Part shown: in pieces, positions 8,188 through 14,680 of the stretch
Layout: each line of letters opens with the position of its first letter
Position numbering within the stretch: position 1 is the stretch's first letter
NCBI GenBank assembly: GCA_947625935.1
Contig: CANQQE010000020.1
Location: forward strand, 1-54,594
DNA from: an uncultured Muribaculaceae bacterium
GTDB lineage: Bacteria > Bacteroidota > Bacteroidia > Bacteroidales > Muribaculaceae
Direction: 5' to 3'
Length of the DNA stretch: 54,594 nucleotides
Notes under the pieces: generated by a model
Told to the model about the DNA's origin: nothing
The model's input: only the letters and a program-made list of their open reading frames with translations
Databases searched by the model: none
Translations under genes and position numbers: made by a program

Positions 8188-9729
8188 TTATTCAAATGAA
8201 CCCATTTTAAGGAAGTTTACCTCCTCCTGAGTCAGATAACGCCAGCGTCCGCGGGGCAGATTCTTCTTGGTCAGACCGGCGAAGTACACGCGATCCAGCT
8301 TAGTCACATGGTAACCGAGCGACTCGAAGATGCGGCGCACGATGCGGTTGCGACCCGAGTGGATTTCTATACCGGCCTGGTTGCGGTCGTTCTCCGTGGC
8401 GTAGCTGATAGCGTCGGCATGAATCGGGCCGTCCTCAAGCTCGATGCCGTCGGCTATGCGCTGCATGTCGTCCTCGGTAATATCCTTGTCACACCATACA
8501 TGGTAGATTTTTTTCTTGACATATTTGGGGTGAGTGAGACGCGACGCAAGGTCTCCGTCGTTGGTGAGCAGAAGCACGCCGGTGGTGTTGCGGTCGAGAC
8601 GGCCTACGGGGTAAATGCGCTCGGTGCAGGCACCTTTGACGAGATCCATCACTGTCATGCGGCCATTGGGGTCATCGCTTGTGGTGACGCAGTCTTTCGG
8701 CTTGTTGAGCAGAATGTAGCACTTGCTCTCCAATGCCACTACTTTCTCATCGTATTCGACGACATCGCTATGTGAGATTTTCGTTCCCAACTCAGTCACT
8801 ACGTTGCCGTTGACCTTGACCAGACCCTGCTGGATAAATTCGTCGGCTTCGCGACGCGAGCAGATTCCGGCGTTAGCCATGAACTTGTTGAGACGTATCT
8901 GTTCATTGGGATCGGGCAGCGGCATTTCATACTCGATGCGCTTGGGGCGCGGAGTGAAGCTCTTGCCGGGACGCTGCTGGTTGAATCCCTGTCCCTGACG
9001 GCGGTTGTTATAGCCACCGGGACGCTGCTGGTAACCTCCTTGACGGTTCTGGTTGTTGTAACCGCCGGGACGTTGTTGATAGCCGCCGGGACGTTGCTGA
9101 TATCCTCCTTGACGGTTCTGGTTGTTGTAACCGCCGGGACGCTGCTGGTAGCCGCCCTGTCGGTTGTTGTTATAGCCGCCTTGACGAGGTTGGTATCCAC
9201 CCTGGCGGTTGTTGTTATAGCCGCCTTGACGGGGCTGGTAACCGCCCTGGCGGTTGCTGTTATAGCCGCCTTGACGGGGTTGATAGCCCCCCTGACGGTT
9301 GTTATAGCCATTCTGACGGGGCTGATAGCCTGTTGTGCCGGTCGACGGGGTCGTGTTTTCTGCGTTCTCCCCCTCGGCCGCACCCTCGGCAGGCGTGGCG
9401 GCTGAATTGAAATCGGGGCGGGGACGCGGTTGGTAACCACCCTGATTGTAGTTGTTGTAACGGTTATAGCCGCCCTGACGCTGCTGATAGCCGCCTTGAT
9501 TGTTGTAGCGGTTATAGCCACCCATGCGATTGTTATTATAAGGGCGGTTGTTGCCATAAGTACGTTCTGTGCGGTTCTCGTCGGTCATGCCGTCGGAAGC
9601 CGATTGGGCATTGAAATTCCTTGTAGCGTTGTAGCTTGGTTTCTCGAATCGTGTCCCCTCGTGGTCATCTGCGACGGGGCGATTCTCCCCGATTCTCGGT
9701 CGTTTCGGTTTCTTTTCGTTGCTGTCCAT
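8188..9729 (-). CDS. RluB/RsuA-family pseudouridine synthase with long repetitive disordered N-terminus
   Basis: A 513-residue protein. Residues 278-513 form a complete RsuA/RluB-type rRNA pseudouridine synthase: S4 RNA-binding domain (IRLNKFMANAGICSRREADEF) and catalytic domain with the active aspartate D379 in GRLDRNTTGVLLLTNDG. The first ~270 residues are unusual. After an acidic/basic start, residues 65-245 are made of units such as QGGYQPRQGGYNNNR, rich in Q, G, Y, N and R. Such RGG/QGGY tracts bind RNA and can drive phase separation in other proteins (family knowledge). RluB modifies 23S rRNA, but RsuA cannot be ruled out, so I give no symbol. Arginine-rich tails on this enzyme are frequent in Bacteroidetes. 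Confidence 0.85.
   Translation of the reverse strand: MDSNEKKPKRPRIGENRPVADDHEGTRFEKPSYNATRNFNAQSASDGMTDENRTERTYGNNRPYNNNRMGGYNRYNNQGGYQQRQGGYNRYNNYNQGGYQPRPRPDFNSAATPAEGAAEGENAENTTPSTGTTGYQPRQNGYNNRQGGYQPRQGGYNSNRQGGYQPRQGGYNNNRQGGYQPRQGGYNNNRQGGYQQRPGGYNNQNRQGGYQQRPGGYQQRPGGYNNQNRQGGYQQRPGGYNNRRQGQGFNQQRPGKSFTPRPKRIEYEMPLPDPNEQIRLNKFMANAGICSRREADEFIQQGLVKVNGNVVTELGTKISHSDVVEYDEKVVALESKCYILLNKPKDCVTTSDDPNGRMTVMDLVKGACTERIYPVGRLDRNTTGVLLLTNDGDLASRLTHPKYVKKKIYHVWCDKDITEDDMQRIADGIELEDGPIHADAISYATENDRNQAGIEIHSGRNRIVRRIFESLGYHVTKLDRVYFAGLTKKNLPRGRWRYLTQEEVNFLKMGSFE
8995..9537 (-). repeat. Degenerate coding repeats for the QGGYQ(P/Q)R(Q/P)GGYN tract
   Basis: About 540 bases of imperfect tandem repeats of roughly 45 bases within the pseudouridine synthase gene. 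Codon choice varies between units, while GGTTAT/CAGGGC-type blocks recur, so it has arisen by repeated duplication. Copy number may vary between strains. Confidence 0.85.
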
Positions 9730-11349: not shown

Positions 11350-11936
11350 TGTGAGTAGTCAATATTTTGAACGACGCGAAATTACAAACATTCCGCCATA
11401 TGCGCAAGCACACAACCGACGCCCTATAAAAAATTTGCCCCGAGGCTCCTTTCAATCAAGGAGCCGCAGGACTAAAGCCAAAAGGCATGATTTGTGATTC
11501 TAAAGATAGTTGTCTTATAGCAATTTCCAAGTGTAGAGATTATATCATACTTACATCTTCCACCTGTAACCAGCGAGGCGTCTCCCGACGACATATTGAT
11601 CAATGCCTTTCCTTAGTCCTTTTGTTTGCGTAAAAATTAACCGGCCCAAGGGTGAGCATCAGGTGTTCTCTTTATTGCTGACAAATATATGACATTATTT
11701 TCAATCTCCAACACTATCTTTCACACAAATTTGCTATTATTGACAAAATCAATATTAATTTTACATACTTTATATATCATAAATTATTTTTCATACAAAT
11801 AAGTCTCTTTTACGATTTGCCGATTCCTACAATTTCGTCATTTATCAAAATTATTAGCAATTTTGTAACTTTCATCAAAGTTGACGCGTCTATAAAAAAA
11901 AGCCACGGAATAGATACACCAATAAATATCGACAAT
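11350..11936. other. 587-bp AT-rich non-coding region between purB and a DUF2807 gene
   Basis: No coding frame is convincing. It holds a perfect 8-bp inverted repeat (11444-11451 with 11458-11465, loop of 6) on the purB side and then about 250 bases of very AT-rich sequence. It must hold the divergent promoters. I do not see a full TTTG-N19..21-TAnnTTTG match, only partial ones such as TAACTTTC near 11868. Confidence 0.5.
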
Positions 11937-12758
11937 ATGAAACCCATTCTGTTACCCATAGGAATCATGCTCGCCGTAATGGTCTCGTCATGTATCACAA
12001 TCTATGAATCAAACGGCTCAGATAATTACATATCTGACCAAAGTGACAAAAAGATAAAACTCTCGGGCATAATAGAATCAGAGAGCTACACATTCGACGA
12101 AATCGAACGATACTCTGCAACGGGCATAGTCCCCGTTGTATACCACCCCGACACAAACGCCACAAAAACCACGGTGAAAATAACCGCAGATAAAGCGGTG
12201 TTGGCCCATATCAAAGTAGCAAAACGGGGGAACGAATTACGCATTTACCGAAACAACAACAGCCACAACGACAAAGACAACCTGAAAATCACTGTAACCG
12301 GCCCGGCGATGACGTGCTACAAAACGGAAGCCTCAGCCACCCTGTCGATAGCCGGCACCCTGTCAGCACCGGGAAAATCATTGAAACTCGTCACCTCATC
12401 CTCATCGGGCATATGGGCCGACAGCATCTCAGCAGGCACAATCTCAATCAGTTCTCAATCATCATCGCTCGTGAAAATAGAATCGGTCAACGCCTATATA
12501 TTTAAGGTGACATCCTCATCATCCTCAGAAGTCAACGTGGACAGAATCTATGCCGACTCGACCAAAGCCGACGCTTCATCAAGCTCCGACGTCACCCTTA
12601 ACGGGATTGCTGCAAAAAGCGTGGTAGCCACATCATCCTCATCGGCCAAACTCGTACTTCGGGGACACACCGACAACGCCAACATCGAATGCTCGTCGAG
12701 CGGCACCGTGTCATGGAAAAATCTTTCGGTCAACAGCTCGTTCTTCCATACCTATTAA
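11937..12758 (+). CDS. DUF2807 (GIN-domain) lipoprotein 1
   Basis: A 273-residue protein starting at MKPILLPIGIMLAVMVSSC, a lipoprotein signal with the lipobox cysteine near residue 19. An upstream ATG in frame at 11817 would hide this signal, so I reject it. Residues ~50-270 match the DUF2807 head/GIN domain: an opening ESYTFDEIERYSATGIVPVVYHPD, a segment reading ITVTGPAMTCYKTEASATLSI, and repeated serine turns (TSSSSSEVNVD, DASSSSDVTLN, TSSSSAKLVLR) spaced about 20 residues apart, as in a right-handed beta-helix. It is probably at the outer membrane or cell surface. Function in the family is poorly known, with adhesion suggested by the domain name. Confidence 0.8.
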   Translation: MKPILLPIGIMLAVMVSSCITIYESNGSDNYISDQSDKKIKLSGIIESESYTFDEIERYSATGIVPVVYHPDTNATKTTVKITADKAVLAHIKVAKRGNELRIYRNNNSHNDKDNLKITVTGPAMTCYKTEASATLSIAGTLSAPGKSLKLVTSSSSGIWADSISAGTISISSQSSSLVKIESVNAYIFKVTSSSSSEVNVDRIYADSTKADASSSSDVTLNGIAAKSVVATSSSSAKLVLRGHTDNANIECSSSGTVSWKNLSVNSSFFHTY

Positions 12759-12813
12759 ACTCAAGCATCGTCAACCGACACCACCCATATTATATAAATA
12801 GTACATAACAGAT

Positions 12814-13551
12814 ATGAAATTCAACAAATCATTATCATTGGTGATTGCCATCGCCTTATCGGCCTCAGCATTGACTTCATGCGGCCTCAACATAAACGGA
12901 TTGGCCCAAAGCATCAAAAACGTCAAGAAGTCGGGACACACGGAGAGTAAAAATTACACCTTCGATTCGTCAAAAATATCAGGAATGGACATTGCCGCAG
13001 GAGTCAATGTCACCTACACCGTATCCGATTCCGTCGCCTCGACAGCAGTGACAGTTGAGACCGACGAGGCAATGATGCCCTATGTTGTGGTCAAACTCGA
13101 TGGCAACGAACTTAACATCTACCGCGAAAGCAATGTCAGCAACAGCAATATAGAAATAAATGTAGAAGTTACCGGGCCGTCGCTGACCTCATGGGAAATG
13201 AGTTCCGGATCACAAATCACGGTCAACGGCACAGTATCGGTATCGACAGGCGCGGAAATAGACGCATCGTCGGGTGCATCAGCCAAATTCACAAGCATCC
13301 ACGCGCCCAGACTGTCAATCGACGTGTCATCGGGGAGCATTGCCAATGTGGCGGAATTTAACGGCGGGAAACTGTCGGTCGACGCATCATCGGGTGCCAT
13401 AGCCAAGATAACCGGCATCAGAGGAGCAAGCGTGTCGGCCGAAGCTTCATCGGGGGCCATCGTCAAGCTCGATGGATGGGCCGCCGACACCGATTTCGAC
13501 ACCTCATCGGGAGGCTCGATACGCTGCTCACAGTTGAAACACACACGATGA
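12814..13551 (+). CDS. DUF2807 (GIN-domain) lipoprotein 2
   Basis: A 245-residue paralogue of the preceding protein, 55 bases downstream. The signal MKFNKSLSLVIAIALSASALTSC ends in a lipobox cysteine. The domain opens with ESKNYTFDSSKISGMDIAAG and shows regular coil repeats (IDASSGASAKF, IDVSSGSIANV, VDASSGAIAKI, AEASSGAIVKL), one per about 20 residues, consistent with stacked beta-helix rungs carrying an SSG turn on one face. It is closer to the DUF2807 consensus than its neighbour. The pair is a local duplication, presumably co-transcribed. Confidence 0.85.
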   Translation: MKFNKSLSLVIAIALSASALTSCGLNINGLAQSIKNVKKSGHTESKNYTFDSSKISGMDIAAGVNVTYTVSDSVASTAVTVETDEAMMPYVVVKLDGNELNIYRESNVSNSNIEINVEVTGPSLTSWEMSSGSQITVNGTVSVSTGAEIDASSGASAKFTSIHAPRLSIDVSSGSIANVAEFNGGKLSVDASSGAIAKITGIRGASVSAEASSGAIVKLDGWAADTDFDTSSGGSIRCSQLKHTR

Positions 13552-13617: not shown

Positions 13618-13660
13618 TTCCACCGCTCAAAATCACTAATTTTGTCAAAATTCAAGTCAA

Positions 13661-14167
13661 ATGATGAAAAAAATACTTCTTTCAGCCGTAGCCGCGCTCG
13701 TAATCGCCGCCCCGGCTATCATCGCTCAGGCAGTGATAACAAAAGTTGACAAAATCGCCCCGACCGACCAGGTTTATATGGACATGGCCACCGAAGCGGC
13801 AAAATCGGCTAAAAAAGCCGGCAAAAAAGCCGACGGTGCGGTTGTCATCCTCAACAACGCTTTCCATTCGAGCGGAAAGCCATCGGGTGACACATCGGCT
13901 GTCCAGGACGCCATAGGGAAAGCCCGCGTCGCTTCGCTTGAAAACGCTAAAATCTACACCGTCAACGAACCCACCACCGAAGCCCTCAACGCCATATCGC
14001 GCCGCAAAGCTCAGGCTGTCTACTTCGTCAATTCGCGCGAAGATGTGGTCAAAGCCGGCATATATCCCGCAGAGGCCTACGACGACTCGAAAATCGACAC
14101 CACAGTCACCCAAGTCCCGATGCACCAGATGGCCTACGATGCCGCCTCAAAACTCATCGGAAAATAA
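13661..14167 (+). CDS. Exported deaminase-fold protein lacking the zinc and catalytic residues
   Basis: A 168-residue protein with an N-terminal signal peptide (MMKKILLSAVAALVIAAPAIIAQA, cleavage after about residue 24). The mature part follows the guanine/tRNA-adenosine deaminase pattern. GAVVILNNAFHSSG matches the first strands, AKIYTVNEPTTEALNAI replaces the family's YTSCEPCPMCLGAI, and the RRKAQAVYFVNSREDVVKAG and PMHQMAYDAA segments match the end. The family's HAE zinc/catalytic motif is replaced near GDTSAVQDA (77-84), and both zinc cysteines of PCxxC are lost (PTTEA, 104-108). It therefore cannot be a normal zinc deaminase and is probably a ligand-binding or structural derivative in the periplasm. 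TAATTTTG at 13637-13644 may be its -7 promoter element. Confidence 0.7.
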   Translation: MMKKILLSAVAALVIAAPAIIAQAVITKVDKIAPTDQVYMDMATEAAKSAKKAGKKADGAVVILNNAFHSSGKPSGDTSAVQDAIGKARVASLENAKIYTVNEPTTEALNAISRRKAQAVYFVNSREDVVKAGIYPAEAYDDSKIDTTVTQVPMHQMAYDAASKLIGK

Positions 14168-14179
14168 CGGTTTCAACAA

Positions 14180-14680
14180 ATGAAAGGAGCAAAACTCCCG
14201 GCTAAAACCAATGTCGCGCGCCTGCTTGACCGGGCGCGCGTTCCTTACGAACTGATTCCCTACGAGGTTGACGAAAATGACCTGGCAGCCACCCATGTCG
14301 CTTCACAGCTCAGCGAGGATATCAGACGGGTGTTCAAGACGCTCGTGCTACACGGAGAGAAAGCCGGATACTTTGTATGCGTTGTCCCCGGCGACGCCGA
14401 GGTTGACCTGAAAAAGGCAGCTAAAGCCGCCGGCGCTAAAAAGGCCGAACTGATTCCCATGAAAGAGCTGCTTCCTCTCACGGGATATATACGCGGAGGA
14501 TGTTGCCCCATAGGCATGAAAAAGCCGTTTCCAACCTTTTTCCACTCTACCGCCCTCGACTACGACTACATCTATGTCAGCGCGGGACAGCGGGGACTTC
14601 AACTAAAGATAAACCCCCGGCAGTTGATAGACTACGTCAAAGCCTCTGTCGCCCCGATAATTGTTACTGCAGATGAATAA
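14180..14680 (+). CDS. ybaK: Cys-tRNA(Pro)/Cys-tRNA(Cys) deacylase, YbaK family
   Basis: A 166-residue cytoplasmic editing enzyme of the YbaK/EbsC family, which hydrolyses cysteine wrongly attached to tRNA-Pro. The family opening [20 protein letters not shown], the segment [12 protein letters not shown] containing the conserved lysine, [25 protein letters not shown] and the glycine loop [20 protein letters not shown] are all present. Length is normal. It begins 12 bases after the deaminase-like gene and overlaps aroC by 8 bases. Confidence 0.9.

Follow-up and report, generated by a model that had tools for sequence, protein, structure and literature searches.

A guanine deaminase relative without a zinc site, probably exported, in the Muribaculaceae

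The window, a stretch of 54,594 nucleotides from an uncultured Muribaculaceae bacterium (contig CANQQE010000020.1), encodes a protein of 168 residues that matches bacterial guanine deaminase (GDA) and has none of its zinc ligands. The gene, its recognisable segments and its nearest neighbours are as follows:

13661..14167, forward strand: pseudo-guanine-deaminase gene, an open reading frame of 168 amino acids plus stop
13661..13729, forward strand: signal-peptide-like segment by hydropathy, residues 1-23, with probable cleavage after IIAQ and before AV
13745..14164, forward strand: deaminase-fold domain, residues 29-168
13895..13903, forward strand: former HAE motif, now S79-A80-V81, placed by the hhalign register and column counts
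13964..13984, forward strand: former CEPCPMC zinc motif, now N102-E-P-T-T-E-A108, placed in the same way
13637..13644, forward strand: TAATTTTG, a weak match to the Bacteroides -7 promoter consensus
12814..13551, forward strand: DUF2807 protein, the upstream neighbour (Pfam E 2.4e-19)
11817..12758, forward strand: second DUF2807 protein (Pfam E 2.4e-21)
14180..14680, forward strand: ybaK/ebsC (Cys-tRNA(Pro) deacylase), the downstream neighbour (TIGR00011 E 8e-56)

The pseudo-deaminase gene lies 109 bases from the DUF2807 gene upstream and 12 bases from ybaK/ebsC, which is the first gene of a ybaK-aroC-radical-SAM block on its 3' side (aroC and the radical-SAM gene were named by eye from the sequence). 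The two DUF2807 genes upstream are arranged in tandem (11817-13551, forward strand). Further away, a 513-residue open reading frame on the reverse strand (8188-9729) has a long QGGYNNRQGGYQPRQ-type repeat region followed by a part that looks, by eye, like an RsuA/RluB pseudouridine synthase.

Relatives of the gene were sought in 298 genomes of the same taxonomic family, drawn evenly. The profile is matched in 235 of them at E<=1e-3, and matches of the pseudo-deaminase type (E<=1.0e-26) occur in 39 genomes at 40 places, the window's genome included; the next match stands at 1.8e-16. The weaker matches that were fetched, 40 loci (L110-L149, some being the same place repeated), all retain both zinc motifs, as do the GDAs found in tandem with pseudo-deaminase genes and L010-L016. 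In the order, 393 genomes were searched at E<=1e-8, and type matches are present only in the window's genome and in one more genome of its family, with the best other match at 1.1e-14. In the phylum, 395 genomes were searched, and the window's was the only one to pass 1e-18. A pattern scan of genome contigs gave 19 loci. All but one have records titled Muribaculaceae, Bacteroidales or Porphyromonadaceae; the title of the remaining contig (L029, JAMPAQ010000001.1, Pseudoflavonifractor sp.) looks wrong, as the contig matches G013:C11 of the window's family.

Profile-profile comparison with hhalign gives a strong match of the window protein to GDA, with the same fold and order of elements and 22-26% identity to the bacterial enzymes. 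A predicted model, of low confidence at residues 1-3 and 10-21, has the cytidine-deaminase fold when compared with known structures, so that the fold assignment made in the sequence-only reading holds by profile and by model alike. The best sequence match is 1wkq, whose absence from the 50 structural matches listed is uninformative. Descent from GDA is seen in the profile matches and in a tree in which the members form one clade whose origin among the GDAs of the taxonomic family is not rejected; the fold is shared with GDA through common ancestry. The window protein on its own scores under the family cutoffs and has no NCBIfam match at E<=0.01; similarity to PF00383 is weak in 31 of the 36 aligned members (E<=0.1), and 13 of the 36 match the TadA model (E<=0.01). 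Chance resemblance to GDA was rejected in view of the strong profile and fold matches. The similarity of the TVNEPTTEA stretch to fasciclin/TGFBI, whose PDB profile matches span some 32 residues and have E-values no better than 0.14, was likewise rejected because the full-length match to GDA is far stronger.

The three zinc ligands, His, Cys and Cys, are present in 15 of 15 GDAs and absent in all 36 members. In the window protein, the hhalign register places S79 at the His, V81 at the catalytic Glu, and T105 and A108 at the two cysteines, as had been read from the sequence at the outset (HAE lost, PCxxC turned into PTTEA). Among the members, the His position carries T in 23, S in 9, D in 2 and E in 2; the first Cys position T in 31, Q in 3 and S in 2; and the second A in 27, V and D in 3 each, T in 2 and S in 1. 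No member retains either the HAE His or the PCxxC cysteines, so the alternative of a single decayed copy among intact homologues falls away; it was rejected also on the strength of the 39 carrier genomes and the dN/dS of relatives given below. The Glu of HAE, invariant in the GDAs (15/15), is lost in the window protein and kept in 22 of the 36 members, with V in 8, A in 4 and I in 2. A relocated zinc site was considered and rejected: at no position does His or Cys reach 24 of 36 members, and His is absent from 24 of the 36 mature proteins. The mature part of the window protein contains two His and lacks Cys.

The substrate loop of the members is shortened and the C-terminal tail deleted relative to GDA. 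The loop deletion measures 6 residues by hhalign, the register used here, and 10 by MAFFT on the mixed set; MAFFT also sets the HAE region a few columns off; in either register the zinc ligands are lost. The loop Asn and the Trp, found in 15 of 15 GDAs, occur in none of the 36 members, and the Asp, equally invariant in the enzymes, is kept in 13 and lost in 23; these three residues presumably bind substrate in GDA. The C-terminal Tyr of all 15 GDAs falls in a column that is a gap in every member. The corresponding Tyr caps the ligand in Arabidopsis guanosine deaminase, as described in PMC9739398, and thus most of the substrate pocket seems to have been dismantled along with the metal site.

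The most conserved positions of the members are the start of helix 1 (D41-M-A to A47), G59, Y99-T-V-N-E/Q-P-T105, F122-V-N124, G133, Y140 and A162; Y99-T105 forms the junction of strand 3 and helix 3, which once held the zinc, and F122-N124 belongs to strand 4. The signature of the members is N(E/Q)PT, with N in 31, E or Q in 36 (25 E and 11 Q at position 103), P in 36 and T in 31 of the 36, and their conserved N-terminal segment reads ITKVDK..P..D....DMA. The GDA consensus has other residues at N102, T105, A108, D41 (D in 34 members, E in 2), K48, V123 and G133. G59, P104, N124 and Y140 are conserved in GDA too and may be merely structural. Cysteines at window positions 58 and 113 (A3 columns) occur together in 13 members, singly in 5 and 4, and are both missing in 14. 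The pairing gives a Fisher p of 0.007 with relatedness uncontrolled, and a disulphide near the old active site is a possibility suggested by the sequences of these relatives.

The N-terminus is signal-peptide-like in 36 of 36 members (simple hydropathy score 2.18-3.12) and in none of the 15 GDAs of alignment A4 (at most 0.99). The signal peptide first noted in the window protein is therefore common to its homologues, and the earlier suggestion that the fold is re-used outside the cytoplasm gains support, the location being called by this hydropathy heuristic. Two GDAs outside A4 have intact zinc motifs together with a signal-peptide-like N-terminus, one in the window's genus (L105:3870-4409, reverse strand, genome G003) and one in another family of the order (L112:1390-1944, reverse strand, genome G531). 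They stand apart in the tree, which points to more than one origin for the export of an apparently intact GDA.

Despite the loss of the active site, the protein product is maintained by purifying selection in the relatives of the window gene. In 13 pairs (identity >60%, 0<dS<2), kept from 703 pairs of 38 genes, dN/dS is 0.045-0.263, compared with 0-0.237 in 9 of 66 pairs of GDAs. The window gene, having no close enough relative, is in none of the 13. No stop codon interrupts the gene in the 40 places, two of which are contig-end pieces.

A tree of 76 rows groups all 36 members in a single clade (100/100), whose stem is 2.63 changes per column long. The clade stands beside a single GDA from outside the taxonomic family with weak support (80/63), leaving its position unsure, and the data do not reject a placement with the GDAs of the family (p-AU 0.382). 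More can be learned from gene order. At 12 of the 40 places the pseudo-deaminase gene is immediately preceded by a genuine GDA gene on the same strand, with gaps of -4 to 27 bases (the values depend on the start codons chosen, and -4 rests on a TTG start), and these 12 places are spread over three separate subclades of the pseudo-deaminase tree. The simplest reading would be that a GDA gene was duplicated in tandem and the copy then acquired a signal peptide; with the stem so long and the support so weak, this origin rests on gene order and not on the tree. GDA at E<=1e-40 is found in 19 of the 39 genomes with a pseudo-deaminase and in 77 of the 259 others (odds ratio 2.2, p 0.026, uncorrected for relatedness and incompleteness of the metagenome-assembled genomes). 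It was not found in the remaining 20 carriers, many of them incomplete; in the window's genome, listed as 99.99% complete, there is no genuine GDA at this threshold, and the nearest protein is TadA-like (37%).

The other neighbours differ between clades, and synteny therefore names no partner. With the window included, an aroC-like gene is nearby in at least 16 of 40 places, ybaK in at least 14 and a radical-SAM-like gene in at least 14, some contigs ending close to the gene; the ybaK-aroC-radical-SAM block of the window is reversed relative to most places. Within the window's genus, DUF2807 genes accompany the pseudo-deaminase in three genomes, called by scan in the window's genome and one further genome and by BLAST cluster in the third; a gene from the cluster of the upstream DUF2807 gene precedes the pseudo-deaminase in G002 and G003 too. 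In 7 of 40 places the gene immediately before the pseudo-deaminase is six-hairpin-glycosidase-like, with gaps of -4 to 114 bases; in five of the seven it is at most 6 bases off or overlapping. These genes, at loci L083, L087, L092, L093, L094, L097 and L100, encode about 754-811 residues with a CBM6-like tail; the call comes from a Pfam scan of L094, in which the CBM_6 match fell under its cutoff. A GH97 neighbour is present in two places, one of them scanned. The element upstream of the window gene was scored against TAnnTTTG, which we take to be the Bacteroides -7 consensus. Of the 40 places, 6 have a match within 90 bases upstream; 500 shuffles give a mean of 1.27 and a maximum of 6, an excess too weak for TAATTTTG to count as a real signal.

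With the shared loss of ligands, the signal-peptide-like N-termini, the selection and the tandem position in 12 of 40 places established, we think it probable that the protein is an exported pseudoenzyme, a former guanine deaminase kept under selection after losing its zinc site. On this reading, an ancestor of this gut family would have undergone a tandem duplication of its GDA gene. The copy would then have acquired a signal peptide and lost the C-terminal cap, part of the substrate loop and all three zinc ligands, after which purifying selection would have retained it. Folding of the mature protein presumably takes place in the periplasm, unless the protein is secreted; it would act by binding rather than by deamination. 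It may bind through the rebuilt edge of the active site, made up of N124, Y140 and the N-E/Q-P-T stretch where strand 3 meets helix 3, and perhaps also through the conserved N-terminal segment. The retention of the Glu base in 22 of 36 members counts against this reading, since a pure scaffold would need none.

As to what is bound, we place a putative protein partner or cell-envelope component first, binding of a purine second and new chemistry third; this ranking is our choice. The second of these, an exported protein that still accommodates a nucleobase or derivative in the old pocket, for delivery or sensing, is clearly less likely. Descent from guanine deaminase, the former active-site edge still among the most conserved places, and Y140 and N124 in common with GDA all speak for it. 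However, several residues invariant in GDA have been lost: every member lacks the loop Asn, the Trp and the final Tyr, which is the ligand cap in the plant enzyme (PMC9739398), and 23 lack the Asp. Nor was a purine transporter or nucleotidase seen among the recurrent neighbour clusters, whose representatives were named by eye. The purine-like ligand suggested from the sequence at first has accordingly become less likely.

A new, zinc-free catalysis on the old fold is improbable. It has a precedent in the TM1506 superfamily, where a deaminase-like fold carries out auto-ADP-ribosylation (PMC8946771), and the Glu retained in 22 members and Cys58 in 18 of 36 could serve such chemistry. However, no residue of catalytic type is invariant, D41 and position 103 coming nearest; the window copy lacks the Glu and its mature part any Cys; and, as weak evidence, none of the 36 members has a Pfam match named TM1506 at E<=0.1. 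Pairing with GDA as the regulatory subunit of an active deaminase, in the manner of ADAT3 with ADAT2 (PMC8216470), is about as improbable. The position directly downstream of GDA and the exported GDA with intact zinc motifs in the same genus (L105) are in its favour, but a signal peptide is predicted for the pseudo copies and not for the tandem GDAs that were scored, so the predicted compartments should differ, and 20 of 39 carrier genomes gave no GDA match at E<=1e-40. That the gene is decaying on its way out, or resembles GDA by chance, is scarcely credible: the window protein alone does score under the family cutoffs, but dN/dS in relatives is far under 1, the 40 places have no internal stop, and the profile and fold matches are strong.

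The exported pseudoenzyme can be set against several known systems. Bacterial guanine deaminase (PF00383; PDB 1wkq, 1tiy) is nearest in fold, element order and, in 12 of 40 places, gene position; unlike it, the members have no His/Cys/Cys, a shorter loop, a deleted C-terminal tail and a signal-peptide-like N-terminus. Plant guanosine deaminase (7dc9, 7dbf, 7dqn) has His80, Cys110, Cys113, Glu82 and the capping Tyr185 according to PMC9739398, and the window protein has none of these. ADAT3, the inactive subunit of the eukaryotic tRNA deaminase, still binds zinc through His and two Cys and serves ADAT2 on tRNA, and its pattern of a kept zinc site with a lost Glu, as given in PMC8216470, is not that of the pseudo-deaminases. 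The TM1506 superfamily likewise puts a deaminase-like fold to other use in bacteria (PMC8946771); auto-ADP-ribosylation is known there, whereas the pseudo-deaminases are known from sequence. A vertebrate protein also combines a signal peptide with a deaminase fold, but PMC11004436 describes its group as zinc-dependent deaminases. Our literature search found no paper on the present family of pseudo-deaminases.

The pseudo-deaminase is thus a pseudoenzyme with two unusual traits: it looks exported, and the metal site is gone from the whole family of members; ADAT3, in contrast, keeps both its zinc and an active partner. The similarity of members to PF00383 and TadA is an annotation trap, as none of them has a zinc site. 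More tentatively, and with somewhat less than even confidence, we suggest that a purine-salvage enzyme has become an extracytoplasmic binding module, its metal site turned into an N-(E/Q)-P-T recognition site, in a change specific to one gut family. If true, the Muribaculaceae would hold a family of exported pseudo-deaminases whose enzymatic parent adjoins them in 12 of 40 places and was not found in about half of the carrier genomes, a clean natural case of the change from enzyme to non-enzyme after duplication, with the parent still adjoining in some genomes.
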